This document shows, in pieces, positions 31,249-46,281 of a stretch of DNA of 64,000 bases; the first letter of the stretch is position 1; each line of letters opens with the position of its first letter. The translations under genes and the position numbers were made by a program. This stretch comes from Chloracidobacterium thermophilum B. Lineage in GTDB: Bacteria > Acidobacteriota > Blastocatellia > Chloracidobacteriales > Chloracidobacteriaceae. The DNA lies in NCBI RefSeq assembly GCF_000226295.1, contig NC_016024.1:1967501-2031500 (forward strand). Direction: 5' to 3'. The notes below the pieces were generated by a model. It did no database searches. It had not been told where the DNA came from and saw nothing but the letters and a program-made list of their open reading frames with translations.

Positions 31249-34200
31249 ATGTCCTATACAAAAGCCAACGATTTACGAAAAGCCGAGAAGCTCGTTCAAC
31301 AAGGCAAAGTCAAGCTTGCGATCAAGGAGTATGAAAACCTGGTCGCATCGAATCCGGGCGACACCAATTTGCTCAACATTCTTGGCGATTTGTATGTCCG
31401 GGACGGGCGGAATGACGATGCCATTATCACCTTTGTCAAGTTGGCTGAAGCGACGCTGCGCGATGGGCACACGCCGCGGGCAATTGCGGTGTACAAGAAA
31501 ATCTACAAACTGGCTCCCGGTAACGCCGATGTCGCGCTGAAGCTGGCGGAACTGTACATTCGCCAGAATCTGATTGTCGAAGCGCGCAAGCAGTACCTTG
31601 AACTGGCCGATTACTACACCAAAAATGGCCGCAGTCAGCAGGCGCTTGAACTCTTGCAGCGCGTTGCCGATCTCGATCCCGAAAATGTCCCTGCCCGGTT
31701 GCGCCTTGCCGAGAATTACCAGCGGGAAGGTATGACGGAGAAGGCGATTGAGGCCTACATTGCAGCCGGCTCACAGCTTATTCGCAAATCCAGCTTGGCT
31801 GAAGCCCAGCAGGTTTTCCAGCGCGTCCTCGAACTCAACCCCATGAGCACCCCTGCCCTCAACTCTCTGGCTACGATTTACATCAAGCAGGGTGATCCCG
31901 GCCGGGCGGTTGAGCTGCTCGACAAGGTGGTGCGACAACGCCCGGACGACACCGACCTGCTCATCCTCAGCGGACGCATCTACCTTCAGGCCGAGTTGCT
32001 GGAAGAGGCTGAAAAAGCGCTGCTCAAGCTCCTCAAAGTGGATAAAACCCGCTTTGAATACGTTTTGACACTGGCCCAGAAATTCGCCGAACGCGGTTAT
32101 CACGACCGGGCTGTAAGCCTGATCGAGCAGTGCGTTGAGCCGATGGTCACCCGGCGGCAGGAAACGCGCGGCGTGGAACTGCTCAAATCCATTCTTGAAA
32201 CTGAGCCATATCACGTTGCGGCTCATCAGTGTCTGGTGCTGCTCTACAAGCGACTCGGCGAAAGCAATGAGCTGTTGGGAGCACTCAAAGCCTTGGCCCA
32301 TGCAGCTCGGCACCATCACAAGCGCGACATCGCCGAACAGGCACTTAGGGAACTCATTGAACTGGAGCCGAATGAGCCAGCCCATCTGGAACTGATGCAG
32401 GCCTGGGGCTTCACGAGCACGGTCAGCCCGACCATCGCTGAACGGGACCGTTTGATCAACGCTCCGGTGTACGCCGGTGGCGTTGGACAGCGCGTGGAGT
32501 TCGTTGATATTCCGACGGTAAATCAACCCCTTACACCAACCGCCGGACCAGCGAACGACTTTGGCTACACCTCCGGGTCAGGTTTTCAACCCCAAGAAAC
32601 ACTGGCCTACCATCCGTCTGGAGCACCTGGCTTTGGCTTTGGTGGGACGACTGGTGGTTGGACGGACTTTACTTCGCCAGCTTCGGGAAACTTTACCCCA
32701 CAAGCGCCGGGAACCGGCTTTGAAAGCGGGTTCAACGGCATGCAAAGCGGCGGTTTTGGCGTGCAGGGCAGCAGCGGCATGGGGACTCCGGGCGGCAGCT
32801 TCGGGCCATTTGGCACGCCTCCACCGCCGGTCGGCGGCTATGTCCCACCCGCAACTGAGGTGCTCCCGGAAGAGGCGCGGCGGCTCAAAGGCGATGCCGA
32901 GCGTTTTGCCAACCTGGGTATGCCGGATCAGGCTATCCACCTGCTTCACGAAGCCGTCCAGCAGGCACCACACAGCATTGAGCTGCGGCTGCTTCTCAAA
33001 CAGCTTTACACCGACATCGGACAGCCACAGGAAGCTGCCCAACAGGCGACAGTCCTCGCCTCACTGTATGCCCAACAGGGGGATTACGCCCAAAGCCAAC
33101 GTTTCCAGCAGGAAGCCCAGCAGGCAGCCGGTTCCATCCCAGCCGGAGGGAGCTTTGACCTGTCATCCGCAACTGTCAGTTCACCACCGCCATCAGGTGG
33201 GGATGAAGTCGAGATAGACATCAGCGGCGAGGTACAGGCCCCGGCACCGGCCCCCTTCGCCGCCTCAGCCCCGTCCAGCACCAGCAGTCCGGCCGGCAGT
33301 GATTTTGGCTACACGAGCGGCGATGGCTTCGTCATTCCGACTGACGCGATTTATTCCGGCCCAGCCCATTTTCCGGCAACGCAGCCGCCGGAAGAACCAT
33401 TCACGGTTCAGGTTCCAACCTTTGACCTGCGCAAGGATCAACCCGGCGAAGTTTCTGTCTCCATGACAGAAGAAAAATTGCGTGAGCAGTTGGAGGGCGT
33501 GAACTTTTACATTGAGCAGGGGTTCTATGACATTGCCCGCGACAATCTGACCAAGCTGAGTTTGGACTTCCCCAACCACCCTGAAATTCTTGCCCTTCTC
33601 GCCAAAGTTCAGGCCCCCGTGCAGCCCAAGGCGTCCGAGCCAACACTGAAGAGCCTGGCCGTTCCGACGGATGCGCCTGCCGAAGTTCCCGTCTCCAAAC
33701 CGGAATCCATCGGGTCGCTGATGAACGGACTGGTGAGCGAACTCGAAAAGGCTCTCGAAGAACTCGAAATGGGCCACTTCGATGCACCGGCCGTCACCAA
33801 TCTGTCAACCAAACCCGAAGCTGCAACCGACAAGACGCCGACCGGTCCGCTCTTTTTGGGCGAGTCCGGGCTTCAGGATGTCTTTGACGAATTCAAGCAA
33901 AGTGTGGAAGTGGATACCGAGGCCACGCCAGACTTTGAAACCCACTACAACCTCGGTTTGGCTTACAAGGACATGGACCTCTTTGATGAGGCTATCGAGG
34001 AGTTCCAGACCGCTTTTCGCGGCACCGACCCTAACTCTCCTGACCCCCACTACTTCCAAGTCTGTAACATGCTGGGGCTGTGCTTTATGGCCAAAAACGA
34101 ACCACAACTGGCCACGGTGTGGTTCAAGCGTGGCGTCGAAGCCCCCGGCCGGACAGAAGATGAATACCAGGCGATGCGGTATGATCTGGGGCTGGCCTAT

Positions 34201-34320
34201 GAGCAGATGGGACGCTACGACCAAGCCCTCGAAGTCTTTGAAATGGTCTATGCTGTGGACATCAACTACCGCGAAGTCGCCGAGAAACTCGCTGAACTCC
34301 GGCGACGTGTCAAACATTGA
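31249..34320 (+). CDS. Large tetratricopeptide-repeat protein
   Basis: A 1023-residue cytoplasmic-looking protein with no signal peptide or membrane span. TPR arrays fill about residues 5-390 (for example DTNLLNILGDLYVRDGRNDD), 540-625 and 900-1015. Between them lie Gly/Pro/Ser-rich linkers (about 430-540 and 625-720). A ten-residue motif DFGYTSGxGF occurs twice, at 437 and 685, once in each linker. The last TPR block follows an acidic segment and ends RRRVKH. It is probably a scaffold; partners are unknown. rnhB upstream and a small membrane protein downstream give no clue. Confidence 0.85.
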   Translation: MSYTKANDLRKAEKLVQQGKVKLAIKEYENLVASNPGDTNLLNILGDLYVRDGRNDDAIITFVKLAEATLRDGHTPRAIAVYKKIYKLAPGNADVALKLAELYIRQNLIVEARKQYLELADYYTKNGRSQQALELLQRVADLDPENVPARLRLAENYQREGMTEKAIEAYIAAGSQLIRKSSLAEAQQVFQRVLELNPMSTPALNSLATIYIKQGDPGRAVELLDKVVRQRPDDTDLLILSGRIYLQAELLEEAEKALLKLLKVDKTRFEYVLTLAQKFAERGYHDRAVSLIEQCVEPMVTRRQETRGVELLKSILETEPYHVAAHQCLVLLYKRLGESNELLGALKALAHAARHHHKRDIAEQALRELIELEPNEPAHLELMQAWGFTSTVSPTIAERDRLINAPVYAGGVGQRVEFVDIPTVNQPLTPTAGPANDFGYTSGSGFQPQETLAYHPSGAPGFGFGGTTGGWTDFTSPASGNFTPQAPGTGFESGFNGMQSGGFGVQGSSGMGTPGGSFGPFGTPPPPVGGYVPPATEVLPEEARRLKGDAERFANLGMPDQAIHLLHEAVQQAPHSIELRLLLKQLYTDIGQPQEAAQQATVLASLYAQQGDYAQSQRFQQEAQQAAGSIPAGGSFDLSSATVSSPPPSGGDEVEIDISGEVQAPAPAPFAASAPSSTSSPAGSDFGYTSGDGFVIPTDAIYSGPAHFPATQPPEEPFTVQVPTFDLRKDQPGEVSVSMTEEKLREQLEGVNFYIEQGFYDIARDNLTKLSLDFPNHPEILALLAKVQAPVQPKASEPTLKSLAVPTDAPAEVPVSKPESIGSLMNGLVSELEKALEELEMGHFDAPAVTNLSTKPEAATDKTPTGPLFLGESGLQDVFDEFKQSVEVDTEATPDFETHYNLGLAYKDMDLFDEAIEEFQTAFRGTDPNSPDPHYFQVCNMLGLCFMAKNEPQLATVWFKRGVEAPGRTEDEYQAMRYDLGLAYEQMGRYDQALEVFEMVYAVDINYREVAEKLAELRRRVKH

Positions 34321-34633: not shown

Positions 34634-36448
34634 CTACTCGCCAATGTCAATGGCCTCGGTTTTGCCCAGTTCAGCGCGGAAAGCCGCGAGTCGGGCGGCT
34701 GGAATCTGCCAGTTGGTATCAAGGGGTACGCTGGCCGGGCGAACCCAGTCCGCCCCTTTGGGCAAGGTCCGCCACCACGCGGCGTACCGCGCAATGACCG
34801 CCTCCCGATCACGTTCATCGGCCAGGTAAAAGAATCCGAAGTCTTCCCCTGAAACACTGCGCAGGGCATCGTAGGCGAAGTACCGGACGGCCGGATAGCG
34901 GTCGCGCAGCGCCTCAATGAGAAAAGGAATCGCCCATTTGCGATCACGGGCGCGCCCATCAGCACCGCTCGTTCCCAAAGCCCACGCAGCCGTGATCCGC
35001 GCCGAGGGGTCACGGCTGAAGAGTTCCCGTACGATTTCCGCAATCCTGGCTTCCGGGCGTGCCGCATTTGCGGCAGAGAGCGCATACCGGGACCCGTACC
35101 ACTGCGTCATGTAGCGCGCCGCCCAGTCGGCACTTTCGCCCGGATGACACATGTTGCACCCGTTCGGCATGTTGGTCGAAAGGCTCTTGTCCGGCTCAGG
35201 GTTCAGAATGCGGTGGGTTCGTTTGGCAGTGAGCAACCCAAAGGAAATACGCGGCCGGTGGCATTCGTAGCAGGCGCTGCCGCTGCTGTCGGCCCGGTGA
35301 TGCGTGTGGGCTTCAAGGTTGGCGGCAATGCTGGCATGGCACTGGGTACAGGACTTGTTCCCCCGCATCTCATCGTGCATCAGGGATTGCTGGCGTCCTT
35401 TGTGAACATCGTGGCAGCTCACACAGGTCATGTTGCCTTCGGTGTGGCACTTGCTCATCAGCAGCCCCTGATACTCGTAAGCTGTCAGGCGCGGCGTGCC
35501 GTCGGGATAGAAACGTGGTGCAAAACTGTAGTTGCCGACTTTGGCTGTGATGTCCAGCGGGCGGTAGTATTTCGACAAATCCTCACCGGGCGTGTAGGGA
35601 TCGCCTTTGGCCATAATTTCCCGGATGTTGTTGATCTCGACGGGCAGCCGTTGCCCATGGCAGTGACCGCACACCTGGGTGTTGGTGTGCTTGTCCCGCT
35701 TCGCCTGGTTGACAATCGTCGGATCATCTGCCCGTGCCTGCCGGCGTAGCCAGGTCCAGCCAAAGGACTGATTTTTTTCAACGTGCAGCTTTCCGGGGCC
35801 GTGGCACGCTTCGCAGCCGATGCCCAGTTCCTCGACACTGGTGTTGGTAAACTGCCCGGTTTTCAGGTCCATGCCGGGCCTGCCCTTGACGTTGTGGCAA
35901 AAGATGCAGTTGTTGTTCCACACACTGGTGTGGCGGCTGAAATCGGGCAAATCCGGGTGCAGAAACAGCCCCTGCAGGTTGAACCAGTATTTTTTCTCGA
36001 TGTTCCAGGCAATAGGCAGGCGGTAAAAGGTTGTCCCGACTTGGGTGACATACTGCTGGAAACGACGCGACCCGATGGTGCGAACGATTTTTGCCACGCC
36101 CATGCGGCCGCTCGGATCGAGCGTTTCCATGAAAAATTCATCACCCTGCCGGAACATCCGCGAAGTAACCCCCTGATAGGTGTAGGTGGCGTTGTTGAAA
36201 TCACCCACCACAGTTTCCGGGGTCGCCGGTTGCGTCATTTTGTGGTGATGCGATTGTGACCAGTGGGCAAACTGGTCCTGGTGACAGGCCCGGCAGCTTT
36301 CCGATCCCACATAAGCCACCTGCGACAGGTCTGGGGCGTAGGTGCGCAGTTCGTCCACCTGCCGTTGCCAGACCCACCACACCAAGCCGGCCAGCAGAAT
36401 ACAGCCGAGTAGGACGCCGATTTTGAGTGCAGCCGATTTCGAGACCAT
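34634..36448 (-). CDS. Membrane-anchored octaheme c-type cytochrome
   Basis: A 604-residue protein with an N-terminal span (about 8-27) and eight CXXCH haem-binding sites, at residues 52, 181, 212, 260, 342, 367, 393 and 431. Additional His residues can supply sixth ligands. After the haem region, about 470-600 is helical and HEAT-like (DPSARITAAWALG, YPAVRYFAYDALRS). This protein should sit on the outer face of the inner membrane and pass electrons among quinol, periplasmic or extracellular partners. The substrate is not known. It shares a strand with the pseudo-peptidase and UbiD genes, 26 bases from the former. Confidence 0.88.
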   Translation of the reverse strand: MVSKSAALKIGVLLGCILLAGLVWWVWQRQVDELRTYAPDLSQVAYVGSESCRACHQDQFAHWSQSHHHKMTQPATPETVVGDFNNATYTYQGVTSRMFRQGDEFFMETLDPSGRMGVAKIVRTIGSRRFQQYVTQVGTTFYRLPIAWNIEKKYWFNLQGLFLHPDLPDFSRHTSVWNNNCIFCHNVKGRPGMDLKTGQFTNTSVEELGIGCEACHGPGKLHVEKNQSFGWTWLRRQARADDPTIVNQAKRDKHTNTQVCGHCHGQRLPVEINNIREIMAKGDPYTPGEDLSKYYRPLDITAKVGNYSFAPRFYPDGTPRLTAYEYQGLLMSKCHTEGNMTCVSCHDVHKGRQQSLMHDEMRGNKSCTQCHASIAANLEAHTHHRADSSGSACYECHRPRISFGLLTAKRTHRILNPEPDKSLSTNMPNGCNMCHPGESADWAARYMTQWYGSRYALSAANAARPEARIAEIVRELFSRDPSARITAAWALGTSGADGRARDRKWAIPFLIEALRDRYPAVRYFAYDALRSVSGEDFGFFYLADERDREAVIARYAAWWRTLPKGADWVRPASVPLDTNWQIPAARLAAFRAELGKTEAIDIGE

Positions 36449-36474: not shown

Positions 36475-38655
36475 CTATGGTTCGGGGCGGAACGGCCGTT
36501 CAAGATACTGCTGGGCCTGCTGACGGGCAGCCGCGTCATCACCGTCTTCAATGACCTTCTTGTACTCGGCCACGGCACGGTCGCGCTGTCCCAGCGCATC
36601 GTACGCATTGCCCTTCTTGAGCGCTGCCCATGACTCAACCCACCGTGGACGCAAATCGCCATCAAGCGCCTCATCAAAGGCATCGCGGGCTTTTTCATAG
36701 TTTCGCTGGCTTAGATACAGCAGGCCAAGATTGTACCATGCCCAACTGCTGCGGCGATTGACGCGAATCGCCGCCTCGAACTGCTGCTGGGCTTCGGCCA
36801 GCTCGCCATCTTCGATGTGCTGGATGCCACGCCGCACAACAACCGCCACGCGCAGTTCATCAGAAGTGCGGAGAATCTTCACATCCGGGTCAATCAACAG
36901 GTCACGCGGCTCAGAAGTGGAGGTCAGACTGAAGCTGGCTTCCCGTCCGTCAAACTGGAGCGTGGCCCGTTCCGCGCTGCCCTTGGTCTCCAGTGTCACC
37001 TCAACCGGCATGCGAAAGCCTTCCAGCTTTTGTTCAAGCGTACCGCGCATGCGGTAGGTGCCGCCCGGAATCCGCAGAATCTTGTAATCAGGGACGAATT
37101 CGGGAACACCCGTCGAATCCACCCACAGGGCAAAGAACCAGCGCAGGTCCTGTCCGGCCGTCTGCGTGGCAAGGTTTTCAAAATCGCTCAGGCTGATGTT
37201 CCGGCCGAGATACTGGGTGTAACAGGTTGCCAGCAACCGGAAGAACGTTTCATCACCCAACAGGACGCGCAGCATCCGAAAGACAAACGCCCCCTTGTAA
37301 AACATAATCGAGCGATAAGCCGCCGACTGGTCATCGAGTTCCGCCGGTGCGCGCCGCAGCGACGACTGTGATTCAAACGCCAGCGCGCGTTCCAAAAAAT
37401 CGCGGACCAGTTCGCGGAATTCCGCGTTGTTGCGCCGGGTTTCCTCAACCAGCAGGTAGGCGTAGGTGGCCAATCCCTGGGAAAGCCAGGCGTCGTCAAA
37501 CGATTTGAGCACGACGCCCTGCCCCCACCACTGGAACGCCACTTCGCGGCAGAGCAGTTCACGGGGCAGCTCACGGGTCCGAAACAGCCGGGAAGCCAGC
37601 AGGGTTACACCGGCGCTGGTGGAACTCTCCAGACTTTCGTCGTCAATTTCCGCCATCGCCAGTGTAGGCCCGAAAGCATAGGGGCCGAAGCTCCGTTCGT
37701 AACGCTCAAGCGCCTGCACAGCGATGTCGGCATACTCGGCAGCACGGGCTTCATTACCGGGACGGACATACACCCGGATTTCCGTCTCTCCCTGCTGCCG
37801 GGTCTGCACCTGGTAGCGACCGACGGCCAGATTCCCGAACAGGACACTTTTGGCCGAAGCAAACGACCAGCGGGTGCGCGGCCCCGTCCCGGCGGGCAAT
37901 GTCGGCGCGGCTTGTGGCACATCGGCTCCGCGCATGGCAACCGGAAGGGACGGCAAAAAGGCATTTGACGGCCGCCGTGGGCGCGGCCGCGGTGATGGGC
38001 GCGGGGACGGACGCGGTGTGGCCGGCGCCGGAGCGGGACGCCGCTCCGGTTCCAGGGACGGCACTCCCGGCCCTGTCACCGGCTGTTTCGCCTGAAATCC
38101 GTAACCCACTACCGTCAATCCATCGGGAACGGTCAGGTTCAGCGTAAAGGTTGCCGTATCGGCCGCATAGCCGTGGAAGGGGAACCAGCGTCCGCCGTAG
38201 AGCAGATAACTCGCCCCGTCCTGACCAACGTAGGCCAGGCGCTTGCTGGTCAGGACGCCGCCTTCGGCCGACAAAAGCTGCCCGGCATACTCGACAATGA
38301 CGACGAACGGTGTACCGGGTGTGGTTGCCCGTGGGAGCGCAATCCGCAGATCGAGATCGCGGAGCCGGTCCTGGGTAAACTGAAGCGGCTGCAGGTTCTC
38401 ATCCAGAACGCGCCGGACTTCCAGCGCTCCATTGAATTCAAACACGACCGACTGCACAGGGCGCCGGGTATCCATCCTGACTTTGGCGCGGGCGACAAAG
38501 GTTTGCGTGGCGGGAATGATCTCGGCATCAATCTGGTAGTCGAGAACATCCAGCGGGTCATCGGCCGGAGCCGCCCAAGTTGTCAGGCAACTCACCAGAA
38601 CGGCAAGCAGCCACGGCACCGGACGCCGGGCTACTTCCCAAAAAGCGTGCGCCAT
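36475..38655 (-). CDS. M1-peptidase-like secreted protein with degenerate zinc site and C-terminal TPRs
   Basis: A 726-residue protein with a signal peptide (about 1-28) and an M1-type N-terminal beta domain. A Pro/Arg-rich low-complexity insert follows (about 200-235), then a peptidase-like domain. The place of HExxHxWxG reads CREVAFQWWG (about 366-376), lacking both zinc-binding His residues, and the GxMEN loop is replaced by IDDESLESS. After a beta domain come TPR repeats (about 620-715). It is therefore probably a non-catalytic binding protein. It overlaps the ubiD-like gene by 25 bases and lies next to the octaheme cytochrome gene. Confidence 0.85.
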   Translation of the reverse strand: MAHAFWEVARRPVPWLLAVLVSCLTTWAAPADDPLDVLDYQIDAEIIPATQTFVARAKVRMDTRRPVQSVVFEFNGALEVRRVLDENLQPLQFTQDRLRDLDLRIALPRATTPGTPFVVIVEYAGQLLSAEGGVLTSKRLAYVGQDGASYLLYGGRWFPFHGYAADTATFTLNLTVPDGLTVVGYGFQAKQPVTGPGVPSLEPERRPAPAPATPRPSPRPSPRPRPRRPSNAFLPSLPVAMRGADVPQAAPTLPAGTGPRTRWSFASAKSVLFGNLAVGRYQVQTRQQGETEIRVYVRPGNEARAAEYADIAVQALERYERSFGPYAFGPTLAMAEIDDESLESSTSAGVTLLASRLFRTRELPRELLCREVAFQWWGQGVVLKSFDDAWLSQGLATYAYLLVEETRRNNAEFRELVRDFLERALAFESQSSLRRAPAELDDQSAAYRSIMFYKGAFVFRMLRVLLGDETFFRLLATCYTQYLGRNISLSDFENLATQTAGQDLRWFFALWVDSTGVPEFVPDYKILRIPGGTYRMRGTLEQKLEGFRMPVEVTLETKGSAERATLQFDGREASFSLTSTSEPRDLLIDPDVKILRTSDELRVAVVVRRGIQHIEDGELAEAQQQFEAAIRVNRRSSWAWYNLGLLYLSQRNYEKARDAFDEALDGDLRPRWVESWAALKKGNAYDALGQRDRAVAEYKKVIEDGDDAAARQQAQQYLERPFRPEP

Positions 38656-40079
38656 TTTTCATCCACCTTGCGCTGAATCTCGGCCGTCATACGGTTTTCC
38701 CGCGGCCAGGGGCGGGTAAAGCCCTCACTCGGCCACTTGCGTGTGGCGTCAATGCCCATCTTCGAGCCGTAGGCCGGCAACCGGGAAGCATGGTCGAGGG
38801 CGTCCACCGGGCCGAGGGTAAACTGGATGTCACGCTCCGGGTCAATGTTGTTGAGGACGTACCACGCCACATAGCTCGGGTCCTGAACCGGCACATCGTC
38901 GTCCACCACGATGACAACCTTCGTAAACATAAGCTGCCCGGTTCCCCACAGGGCATTCATGATTTTGCGGGCGTGCCCCGGATAGGCCTTCTTGATGGAA
39001 ACAATTGCCAGGTTGTGAAACACGCCCTCAAAGGGCAGGTGCATGTCCACGATTTCCGGGAACTGCCGACGCAGCACCGGCTTGGCAATCTCGCCGACGG
39101 CTTCCCCCATCCAGCAGTCTTCCATCGGCGGCCGTCCGACAATCGTCGTCTGGTAAATCGGACTGCGGCGGTGGGTGACACAGGTGACGTGAAAGACGGG
39201 ATAGTTGTCTGCCTCCGTGTAAAAGCCGGTGTGATCGCCAAAGGGCCCTTCAGTACGGAGTTCCTGCGGGTCAACGTAGCCTTCCAGAACGATTTCCGCC
39301 GTGGCCGGGACTTCCAGATCATTTGTCAGGCACTTGACCATCGGCACCGGCTTTCCGCGCAGGAAACCGGCCAGCAGCATTTCATCCACATCATCCGGCA
39401 ACGGGAAAATGGCAGCAAAGGTCAGAATGGGGTCGCCGCCAATGGCCACAGCCACGGGCATGCGTTCACCGCGCTCCAGCGCCGTGCGCCAGTGCGAAGC
39501 GCCATGCTTGTGAATCTGCCAGTGCATGCCGGTCGTACAGGCGTCGTACAGTTGCATGCGGTACATCCCGACGTTGCGCCGTCCTGTGACGGGGTGGGAC
39601 GTAAACACCAGTGGGAAGGTGATGAAGCGGCCGCCGTCTTCGGGCCAGCACTGGAGCACGGGCAGGCGGCGCAGGTCGAACTCGCCTTCCTGCAACACGA
39701 TTTCCTGACATGGCCCACGCTTCACCCGTTTTGGAAAAACCGCCCCCAGTTCAGCAAACTTCGGCAACAGCTTGACCTTTTCCAGAATGCCCTGTGGCGA
39801 TTTGAAATCCAGAATCTCGTTGAGGCGTCCGGCAATGTCGGCGTAGCTCTCGACTCCCAAAGCCATAAGCATCCGCCGCCGGCTGCCGAGGGCATTGATG
39901 AGCACTGGAATGGGCGACTCCTCGACGTTCTCGAACAGCAGCGCCGGCCCACCGACCTTCGATATGCGGTCCGTGATTTCGGTAATTTCGAGGTGGCAGG
40001 ACACTGGTGTTTTGATGCGCTTGAGTTCCCCGGCCTGCTCCAAATCCCGGATAAACTCGCGCAGGTCTTCATAGGGCAT
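38631..40079 (-). CDS. UbiD-family prenylated-FMN decarboxylase
   Basis: The 482-residue protein matches UbiD along its length: MPYEDLREFIRDLEQAGEL, LLFENVEES, GMYRMQLYD, the WRTALERGERMPVAVAIGGDP segment (quoted in part) and LEGYVDPQELRTEGPFGDHTG (quoted in part) with the Glu-Asp pair. Members remove CO2 from aromatic quinone precursors, using prenyl-FMN made by UbiX. Whether it serves menaquinone or ubiquinone cannot be told here. The frame extends to 40184, but ATG 40079 fits the family. Confidence 0.9.
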   Translation of the reverse strand: MPYEDLREFIRDLEQAGELKRIKTPVSCHLEITEITDRISKVGGPALLFENVEESPIPVLINALGSRRRMLMALGVESYADIAGRLNEILDFKSPQGILEKVKLLPKFAELGAVFPKRVKRGPCQEIVLQEGEFDLRRLPVLQCWPEDGGRFITFPLVFTSHPVTGRRNVGMYRMQLYDACTTGMHWQIHKHGASHWRTALERGERMPVAVAIGGDPILTFAAIFPLPDDVDEMLLAGFLRGKPVPMVKCLTNDLEVPATAEIVLEGYVDPQELRTEGPFGDHTGFYTEADNYPVFHVTCVTHRRSPIYQTTIVGRPPMEDCWMGEAVGEIAKPVLRRQFPEIVDMHLPFEGVFHNLAIVSIKKAYPGHARKIMNALWGTGQLMFTKVVIVVDDDVPVQDPSYVAWYVLNNIDPERDIQFTLGPVDALDHASRLPAYGSKMGIDATRKWPSEGFTRPWPRENRMTAEIQRKVDEKWRTLFGK

Positions 40080-40238
40080 GGTGAGACAACAACCCAGTCC
40101 GTCACACTGAGAAAATGACGCCGCGCCACTAAACGGTCTCCGCGACCGCGCGGCTCGGCGTGAAACTACTGCATGTCTGTCCACAACCAGAAATGGTTTT
40201 GGACCGAACCACTTTGATGCAGCAAAGATTCGGGCACG

Positions 40239-43860: not shown

Positions 43861-46281
43861 CTAGTTGCCCAAAACATCGAGCGGAACTTCCCGGCTGGCG
43901 ACATTGTGGGCAAAGTCTTCCGCCGTCACAAGCAGGACGTACCGCCCAGCAGGCAGCCCCGGCGGCAGCCGTAACACCCCGACGTTTGTCTTGCGCTGGG
44001 CGTCCCACCTGACCGGTACGGGCAACCCACCGGCCAACCGCGCGGCAATGCGCCGGGTATCGGCATCGGCCGCCACCAGAACCTCGATGTCCTCACCGGC
44101 GCGGGCCGGCGTCGGCTTGGTGGTCACCTGCAACTGCGGCGGACGGCTGTCAATTGTAAAACCTTTTTCCTCCTGGAAGACCTGTCCGTGGGCATCGGTC
44201 AGCACCAGCCGACAGCGGTAACGCCCATCCTGCATCGTCTTCGGAGCAAGAAAACGGGTTTCCCACACATCTTCCGAAGCGAGATAGGTCAGCGGTTTGA
44301 CCAAGCCAAAGGGAAAGACGGCGACCACCGAGCGAATCGAAGCGTCTGTCCGTACGCGCAGCACCGGATCACCCGGCTTGATGACCCGTGGGCGCAGCAG
44401 CGCCCGTGGCGCGGCCAGAAAAGCCGTGTACGGTGTGACGATGTTGTACTTCTTCGAGAGCGCAATGACCTCAGCAATGAGTGCCTCGTCTTCGCCATCG
44501 AGCGCCATCCGGCGCAGCAGGGCGCTGATACGTTCCTGCGCCCACAGCCGGGGCAAGTGGCTGTGTGTGGCATCGCGTTCCGGCAAGGCCCCGGTTGCCG
44601 TCGCCGTGACTGACCGGCCAGCCTGGGTGCCGCTGACCGTACATTCCACCTGCGCCACCGGTCGCCGATAGCGCCCTATGAAGCTGACCCGCGAGCCGTC
44701 ATAACCGGTTGTTTCCTCGGCAGGGTACACCGCGTAGGCATTGTCCGGGTCACTCAGGCGCAGCTTGAGACCCTCAACCGGACGCTGCCCGACCCTGGCA
44801 AAGAAGGCATCCAGCCGGAAGGTCAGATCGTCCGTTTCACGCCCGAACTCACTGACGCCCCGGCTGACCCGCGCCAGTTCACTGAGAAATTCCCGGTTGG
44901 CGTCCGCGCCCACGCCAAAGGCAAAGACCCGCACCGGTGCGCCTCCCCTGGCATTGGCTTCGGCAAAGTCCCGGATGAGCTTGTTGCCGCGCGTGGTTGT
45001 CAGCGTCGGATTGCCGTCTGTAATCAGGATGAGGGTGCGCTCATCCCCCGGCAGAGCCTTCGCCAGCGCCAGTCCGCGCTGGAGCGCTTTGGCAAAGTCC
45101 GTCCCACCGCTCAGGTAACTGCGCCGGATGAAATCCAGCGCCCGCGCCGTGTTTTCTGCCGTTCCGGTCTGGGGTGTCTCGGAAAAGGCCTGTACGTCGT
45201 CGTTGAACAGCACGAGATTGAAGCGGTCTTCGGGGCGCAGCGACTTCAAAAAGAGACTACAGGCTTCATACGCCCGGTCGAGCTTTTCAAAGTTCATCGA
45301 AAGCGACGTATCCAGCATCACCACGACCGACCGTGGCGGCGCTGGCGTGCGCCCGAAGTCACTGACCGGTTGCCCCCGCTCGTTGAACAGGGCCGACACT
45401 TCAAAGTAGCCATCCTCATCTGGCTTCGTCCGATTGGGATCACGCAGGTCATAGGCCAGCAGCGGCTCCGGCGAACGATAGGCAATGAGACTGGCGCTGG
45501 TGCGGGACACATCGAGTCCGTAGTCAAAGGCCAGGTCCTGGGTCAGCGCCACGCCTGCGCCCTGATATTCGGCCACCACACGGTTGACGCCCATCGGCGT
45601 GACCTGAAGCGGGTAAGCCGTGTCGCGCTGCCGGAATCCCACCAGTGGGAAACCGCTGGTGATGTCCACGCGAATAGACAGGCTGCCAACAGCTTGCTGG
45701 CCGTACTGGGAAGGTTTGAAGGGCAACGAAAAGAACGACCGCAATCCGGCAACCGGCACGGCCTCGACATATTCCAGCTCAACGCGCTTGGTGCCGTAAG
45801 CCGGAATGGGCACGAGACGGACGGTAAAGGCCGTGGCCCCACCGGCTTCGTCCTCCTGTGTGACCAACCCCGGATCAATGGCCTGCCGTTTGAGTTCGGC
45901 GTAAACTTCCTGGGCACGCGGCAGTTCGAGCATCACGCCCGGAATCCGCACATCACCATCCCAAACAGCAAAATCGGCAATGGCTCCACTCGTCGGCAGC
46001 CGGAAGATGTACTTCCCTTCCAACGGCTGATTTGTCCGGTTGGCATAAATCTGGACAATGCGCACCCGTGCGAACTGTTGATCAATGCGGATGTCCACCC
46101 GCATGTCATCCAAGGCGATGCGGGTCGGATCGGGCCTGGCTTCATCGCCGGGCAGAACGACGCCCGACTGGGCTGCCGCCGGAAGCCCTCCACCGGCAAT
46201 GACCAGCCACAGGACAGGCAAAACCCAACGTGCCCAGCCGAGCAGCCGGACCCAGTGCAGATGGTAAACGTGTGGGAGCAT
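43861..46281 (-). CDS. Secreted VIT and von Willebrand A domain protein
   Basis: An 806-residue protein with a signal peptide (about 1-38) and a VIT domain (about 45-170: VDIRIDQQFARVRIVQIYAN, quoted in part, EGKYIFRLP). A VWA domain follows (about 320-500) with an intact metal site, DTSLSMN, and SGGTDFAKAL. Residues 590-640 include the KYNIVTPYTAFLA segment seen in inter-alpha-trypsin-inhibitor-like bacterial proteins. A C-terminal beta region finishes it. It probably binds a protein ligand in the periplasm or cell surface. It is preceded on its strand by a secreted basic protein 112 bases away. Confidence 0.85.
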   Translation of the reverse strand: MLPHVYHLHWVRLLGWARWVLPVLWLVIAGGGLPAAAQSGVVLPGDEARPDPTRIALDDMRVDIRIDQQFARVRIVQIYANRTNQPLEGKYIFRLPTSGAIADFAVWDGDVRIPGVMLELPRAQEVYAELKRQAIDPGLVTQEDEAGGATAFTVRLVPIPAYGTKRVELEYVEAVPVAGLRSFFSLPFKPSQYGQQAVGSLSIRVDITSGFPLVGFRQRDTAYPLQVTPMGVNRVVAEYQGAGVALTQDLAFDYGLDVSRTSASLIAYRSPEPLLAYDLRDPNRTKPDEDGYFEVSALFNERGQPVSDFGRTPAPPRSVVVMLDTSLSMNFEKLDRAYEACSLFLKSLRPEDRFNLVLFNDDVQAFSETPQTGTAENTARALDFIRRSYLSGGTDFAKALQRGLALAKALPGDERTLILITDGNPTLTTTRGNKLIRDFAEANARGGAPVRVFAFGVGADANREFLSELARVSRGVSEFGRETDDLTFRLDAFFARVGQRPVEGLKLRLSDPDNAYAVYPAEETTGYDGSRVSFIGRYRRPVAQVECTVSGTQAGRSVTATATGALPERDATHSHLPRLWAQERISALLRRMALDGEDEALIAEVIALSKKYNIVTPYTAFLAAPRALLRPRVIKPGDPVLRVRTDASIRSVVAVFPFGLVKPLTYLASEDVWETRFLAPKTMQDGRYRCRLVLTDAHGQVFQEEKGFTIDSRPPQLQVTTKPTPARAGEDIEVLVAADADTRRIAARLAGGLPVPVRWDAQRKTNVGVLRLPPGLPAGRYVLLVTAEDFAHNVASREVPLDVLGN

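Follow-up and report, generated by a model that had tools for sequence, protein, structure and literature searches.

A zinc-site-less M1-family protein with C-terminal TPRs in Chloracidobacterium thermophilum, and its wider family in the Acidobacteriota

We analysed a 64,000-nucleotide stretch of the Chloracidobacterium thermophilum B genome (the window) and found that a gene on its minus strand (36475..38655) encodes a 726-residue M1-like protein with TPRs in which all three zinc ligands of the peptidase site have been replaced. We consider it very likely that this is a dead, ancient and selected M1-TPR protein. Homologues are found in nearly every genome of two Acidobacteriota classes and, because the gene adjoins outer-membrane genes in many of these relatives, its work may lie in building the envelope rather than in cutting proteins. 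The complete explanation that we favor, a periplasmic pseudopeptidase that serves as an adaptor or chaperone in outer-membrane/LPS biogenesis, has in our estimate about an even chance of being right. A sequence-only reading of the window had described an M1 fold with an erased zinc site joined to TPRs and had tentatively linked it to the octaheme cytochrome encoded next to it. The description is correct and applies more widely than first claimed; a link to the cytochrome finds no support as a role of the family.

The gene is a single open frame, and its product belongs to peptidase family M1 by both sequence and fold. Peptidase_M1 (PF01433) matches residues 365-511 with an E-value of 6.2e-17 (62.4 bits against a cut-off of 27.7 bits), and Pfam TPR models match at about residues 610-713. 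A Pfam scan at E ≤1 returned M1 and repeat families of the TPR, HAT and ARM type and no M48 domain, and no named NCBIfam family lies above its cut-off among the matches listed (25 of 27). The AlphaFold2 model, built with 44 sequences, has a mean pLDDT of 88.1 and a pTM of 0.83. All 50 Foldseek matches listed for this model are M1-family peptidases, with a best E-value of about 1e-30, and a second aligner superimposes it on tricorn factor F3 (Z 38.5, rmsd 6.1 over 553 residues) and on the two-domain Deinococcus M1 structure 6ifg (VIA; Z 37.4, rmsd 2.9 over 405 residues).

Following a putative Sec signal peptide (about residues 1-31; 38563..38655; all features of the gene are on the minus strand), the N-terminal beta domain of the M1 fold covers residues 34-190 (38086..38556), as delimited by DSSP on the model and by the ranges aligned to M1 structures. 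A Pro-rich variable linker (residues 196-258; 37882..38070), with pLDDT of 43-54 over residues 201-250, leads to the thermolysin-like, catalytic-type M1 domain (residues 260-520; 37096..37878), which is defined by PF01433 and the fold matches. Beta domain III (residues 521-590; 36886..37095) was placed by DSSP, and the TPR helices (residues 599-719; 36499..36861) by the Pfam TPR models, the helices of the model and column entropy. The protein thus carries C-terminal TPRs on a metallopeptidase-type domain, and its N-terminus points to secretion: the putative signal peptide holds a hydrophobic 12-mer (score 2.4), with pLDDT of 41-49 over residues 1-30. Across the family, 113 of 116 rows open with such a hydrophobic stretch, their starts, set at the first ATG (or GTG/TTG), being approximate. 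The protein is therefore likely periplasmic, as the sequence-only reading had suggested with its secreted or periplasmic binding protein. We rejected a lipoprotein reading of the family, a lipobox pattern occurring in just 3/116 rows.

The erasure of the zinc site is seen in the aligned site columns. At columns 370, 371, 374, 393 and 452 the window protein has R-E-F-Q-F, where 11 of 11 rows of ordinary M1 proteins from this phylum have H-E-H-E-Y. The former HExxH (residues 370-374, R E V A F; 37534..37548) has thus lost the first His to Arg370 and the second to Phe374, and the third ligand, Glu, is Gln393 (37477..37479) within SQGLA at the NEGFA position, a loss that the sequence-only reading had passed over; the catalytic-Tyr position is Phe452 (37300..37302). 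The earlier report of CREVAFQ in place of HExxH was read correctly, although the erasure concerns the ligands only: E371, in the catalytic-Glu column, is still there, and QWWG follows directly after residues 370-374. The HExxH-x18-E, GxMEN and catalytic Tyr of an active M1 zinc aminopeptidase are all missing, and from its sequence the protein probably neither binds zinc nor acts as a peptidase.

The loop at the GxMEN position (residues 336-349, EIDDESLESSTSAG; 37609..37650) bears out the claim that this motif is gone, and an M-E-N motif is absent from all 116 family rows. GxMEN is variable even among ordinary M1 proteins, because their aligned loops read G-G-M-E in 8/11 rows and a complete M-E-N in 4/11. 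The genome that encodes the pseudopeptidase also has an M1 protein of the ordinary kind (L001, G000:C1:1756971-1757588), which reads H-E-H-E-Y at the site columns and has GGMEN, so the pseudopeptidase is not that genome's sole M1 protein.

The loss is fixed in the window's class. All but one of the 10 genomes of the family have a homologue, as do 138 of the 147 of the class. The best-scoring loci, found by whole-protein comparison, gave 30 class rows with the window's own, in which Arg370 is found in 30/30, Glu371 in 29/30 and W376, W377 and G378 in 30/30 each, confirming both the fixation of the loss, for which an alignment of homologues had been proposed as a check, and the conservation of the adjacent WWG. 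No His occurs at either His column in any of these 30 rows. Residue 374 is Tyr in 18, Phe in 11 and Val in one; residue 393 is Gln in 27, His in two and Leu in one; and residue 452, in 22 class rows, is Phe in 13, Tyr in seven, Ser in one and Leu in one. A contig scan, partly selected by a pattern that contains the block, yielded 60 class-type loci among 68, and Arg replaces the first His in all 59 that cover the site, the 60th being a fragment without it. The peptide patterns of the scan (A[YF]QWWGQ and W[VI]DSTGVP) were shaped by the window's class, so it says nothing on the absence of the M1-TPR family from other phyla. One contig titled Gammaproteobacteria (L057) carries a class-type M1-TPR gene and is probably a mislabelled bin; its downstream open reading frame clusters with those of L071, L073, L075, L078, L079 and L096. 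Loss in every class orthologue read rules out a recent point mutation, and recurrence of the block in seven genomes of the genus and in the 30 orthologues rules out a sequencing or frame error.

The replaced block is under purifying selection, and nonsynonymous change is low within the genus. Between the window protein and its relative in genome G003, dN is 0.127 over the whole gene (dS 1.37, near saturation), 0.038 over residues 366-400, 0.033 over the TPRs and 0.365 over the Pro-rich linker, making the replaced block and the TPRs the most constrained of the regions measured in this pair. In five of six pairs the dN of the block falls below that of the gene as a whole; the exception is the closest pair, window and G001, with 0.012 against 0.007 and few changes. 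Column entropy within the class is 0.58 for the former zinc block against 1.21 for the TPRs and, because it is lower than that of the TPRs, we conclude that the replaced site is held fixed within the class. Random decay of the block is disfavoured by dN and dS, and the proposal of domain re-use instead of decay holds up.

Homologues beyond its class place the window protein in a wider family. A second class has them in 118 of its 121 genomes; we take it to be Terriglobia by its named members (L105, L106 and L110, contigs titled Terriglobia, share the protein with members of that draw), and 30 loci plus 40 more were taken from the 118 genomes with a match. A draw across the phylum gave a match in 64 of 80 genomes, of which about 24 are M1-TPR proteins as judged from coordinates and the rest other M1 proteins; further families in this draw have the same architecture, TPR block included. 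After omission of fragment loci (L096, L107, L109, L111, L112, L113 and L115) and of the duplicate L147, the large alignment holds 116 family rows, just 22 of them from the window's class; with seven duplicate pairs, the 116 rows represent 109 distinct proteins. Ten positions are invariant in all 116 rows (W157, P159, K454, G538, P590, W672, G682, D686, R691 and Y698). Among the regions compared, mean column entropy is at its lowest in the TPRs (1.61 versus 1.75-2.47 in the other structured regions).

The zinc site is intact (H-E-H-E) in 9 of the 109 distinct proteins; at least one His is lost in 97 and both are lost in 66. H-E-H-E together with the catalytic Tyr is found in 3/116 rows. These intact sites are confined to distant orthologues outside the window's class, and the close relatives with HExxH that would have spoken for a recent mutation did not appear. 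The replacement states vary by family and include N-T-H-N, N-Q-R-N, R-K-Y-E, K-R-R-E and Q-E-Q-H, among others. A separate case is family f52 (L213-L216, L227 and L253), in which the second His and QWF are kept and the first His and the catalytic Glu are lost in 4/4 rows.

We addressed the history of the site on a tree of 92 of 127 rows built by a quick method (LG+G4) with the zinc-site columns removed and with long outgroup branches. The larger families form clades on this tree. The intact or lost state requires at least 8 changes by parsimony when gains are allowed and 15 losses under Dollo, where regain is forbidden. The Dollo count includes E-to-D and E-to-N changes as losses (L105 and L151 alter the third ligand only), and it is generous because zinc may still be bound at some sites with an E-to-D change. 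As far as parsimony on these sequences goes, the ancestor may instead have been without a zinc site that was later regained. Since a minority of relatives have a complete zinc site, the family may include some enzymes. On the simplest reading, the function that its members share has been independent of the zinc site always, or from early on.

What this function might be is suggested by gene neighbourhoods in the relatives. Clustering of neighbouring open reading frames without prior choice, in the 40 longer loci from 26 families, gave one standout cluster, found in 23 loci of 14 families, which Pfam identifies as LpxB and which lies just upstream of the M1-TPR gene on the same strand; the next clusters reach seven families at scattered positions. 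Outside the window's class, tblastn places lpxB upstream of the M1-TPR gene and in the same orientation at 28 of 30 loci, representing 17 of 18 families, at up to 0.7 kb from the M1 match in 27 loci and 1.6 kb in one, distances being between tblastn matches and not annotated gene ends. Family f52 is the sole sampled family outside the class without lpxB nearby (2/2 loci). Terriglobia-type contig loci have LpxB upstream in six of eight, the others being L102, which has a 1.2 kb flank, and L104. At one locus the stop codon of lpxB shares an ATGA with the start codon of the M1-TPR gene (L233:1454-1457), a sign that translation of the two is coupled.

A different envelope context is found in class-type contig loci, where LpxI lies within 2.6 kb downstream on the opposite strand (convergent) in 11 of 60, accompanied by LpxA in nine, FabZ in eight, OmpH in eight and BamA in six. 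In one further locus, L056, there is no LpxI, and LpxA lies downstream in the same orientation as the M1-TPR gene, bringing the class-type loci with a tested gene to 12/60. None of the 60 has lpxB and 48 are without any tested envelope gene; with at least 3 kb on both sides the count with a tested gene is 7/34. None of the 10 whole-genome loci in the class has any tested gene nearby, lpxB included. The lpx linkage is thus absent from the window's own lineage, and the linkage evidence stems from its relatives. Sixteen contig loci (for example L115:4179-5654) share a cluster of 27 open reading frames that are encoded close to the M1-TPR gene on the other strand; the representative of this cluster is an M16-family peptidase by Pfam.

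We hypothesize that the M1 body has been retained as a peptide- or protein-binding module and that the C-terminal TPRs would dock it to a partner, the two together forming a periplasmic adaptor or chaperone for outer-membrane/LPS biogenesis. Substrate binding and the outer-membrane role are suggested by fold and linkage, respectively, and linkage is not function: the adjacency to lpxB could be inherited gene order. Alternatively, the protein may be a periplasmic scaffold whose conservation has nothing to do with the outer membrane, the order next to lpxB being inherited and nothing more. That the gene is retained although most loci of the window's class are without the linkage, the protein surviving its loss, fits such a scaffold. 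We nevertheless regard it as somewhat unlikely, as distinct envelope contexts recur (lpxB upstream; a convergent lpxI-lpxA-fabZ-ompH-bamA group; lpxA downstream) and LpxB, in the 40 loci, far exceeds every other neighbour cluster both in the families it covers and in how constant its position is.

In Chloracidobacterium itself the M1-TPR gene lies between ubiD and a cytochrome gene without lpx linkage, so the role there could have drifted. The start of the gene overlaps by 25 bp the gene for a UbiD-family decarboxylase (38631..40184, minus strand; Pfam UbiD), and a 26-bp gap separates it from the gene for a 604-residue octaheme c-type cytochrome with HEAT-like repeats (34634..36448, minus strand; eight CXXCH motifs and Pfam). 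The window's genome has its lpxB at a distance of 1.2 Mb from the gene, and its LptD match is weak but above its cut-off (23.5 bits versus 22.4). Beyond the two adjacent genes, the window encodes a 1023-residue TPR-rich protein with a Gly/Pro-rich middle (31249-34320), a relative of which is near the M1-TPR gene in 1/68 contig loci, and an 806-residue protein with VIT and VWA domains and a hydrophobic N-terminus (43861-46281). Several neighbours were rejected as conserved partners: RnhB, KsgA, the SDR, the S1/P1-type nuclease, NuoH and the 42473 open reading frame have matches in genus contig loci only, and the VIT and 46394 proteins have none in 68 loci. For a histidine kinase there is an additional weak match in L103, and for a sigma factor in L065 and L102; we take these to reflect large families.

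This gene order raises the possibility that the protein is a partner-specific pseudopeptidase whose partner in Chloracidobacterium is the octaheme cytochrome, which it might, for instance, help to assemble or dock in the periplasm. The one-strand order ubiD, M1-TPR and cytochrome with its 26-bp gap, found in 7/7 genomes of the genus, speaks for such a role. We consider it improbable, as the family-wide linkage expected of a maturation or docking factor is not seen: by tblastn, the cytochrome and ubiD lie near the M1-TPR gene in 3/68 contig loci, all of them Chloracidobacterium, and no cytochrome homologue was found at the 65 contig loci outside the genus, some of which have short flanks. Neither gene was seen at L013, L014 and L050 of the same family, L013 and L014 having short flanks, and the M1-TPR protein is far older than the Chloracidobacterium gene order. 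It is more improbable still that the window protein remains an enzyme, binding zinc differently or using Glu371 and its neighbours for another hydrolysis: E371 in 29/30 class orthologues and the full zinc site in 9/109 distinct relatives speak for it, and against it stand the replacement of all three ligands with no His at either column in the 30 class rows, the Phe in place of the catalytic Tyr, the missing MEN motif and lost states that differ between families.

Returning to the reading we prefer, an envelope adaptor or chaperone, the M1-TPR protein is a candidate envelope factor, and a near-universal gene that often follows lpxB and has kept the full zinc site in 9 of the 109 distinct copies read amounts to a natural experiment in turning a peptidase into a pure binding module. 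To our knowledge, few bacterial pseudopeptidases have been described and outer-membrane assembly in the Acidobacteriota has been little studied. The fold is known; a description of the M1-TPR combination or family was not found among the matches listed in the open-access literature, as far as the available text of those sources goes.

Among known systems, the M1 aminopeptidases (6ifg, 6a8z, ERAP1 and tricorn factor F3) share the order of N-terminal beta domain, thermolysin-like domain and further beta domain, and the QWW, KGA..ML and W..GxP blocks of ordinary M1 proteins align with the window protein; the window protein differs in missing the zinc ligands, the catalytic Tyr and GxMEN. Longer M1 proteins have a helical domain where the window protein has TPRs, and the alignment with ERAP1 (6ryf) reaches residue 721. 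An M1-like fold serves as a scaffold in TAF2, a subunit of the eukaryotic nuclear complex TFIID. In yeast, the M1-family nascent-chain binder Tma108 may act non-enzymatically, by binding, according to the portion available of a review of M1 pseudopeptidases that names Tma108 and, in that portion, no bacterial example (PMC11266112). Tma108 resembles the window protein in being an M1 protein with a possible binding role; unlike it, Tma108 is eukaryotic, keeps all active-site residues but one and, in the same portion of the source, has no TPR fusion.

The closest likeness by description is to BepA (YfgC) of E. coli, a periplasmic M48 metallopeptidase with TPRs that contacts the BAM complex and LptD and combines protease with chaperone-like functions, the latter partly kept by the protease-dead E137Q variant, according to the part of the article available (PMC8423444). 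BepA and the window protein both have a metallopeptidase-type domain followed by TPRs; they differ in that BepA is M48, not M1, and retains HExxH and proteolysis. Any of the five M48 matches in the window's genome could already fill a BepA-like role there. We tentatively propose, with somewhat less confidence than in an envelope role as such, that the M1-TPR protein is a factor for outer-membrane biogenesis that is specific to this lineage and occurs almost throughout two Acidobacteriota classes, with a zinc site lost repeatedly and TPRs and fold fixed, and the M1 counterpart of the chaperone/adaptor half of BepA only. It would be used like BepA with the protease half given up, a likeness of action and not of family membership.
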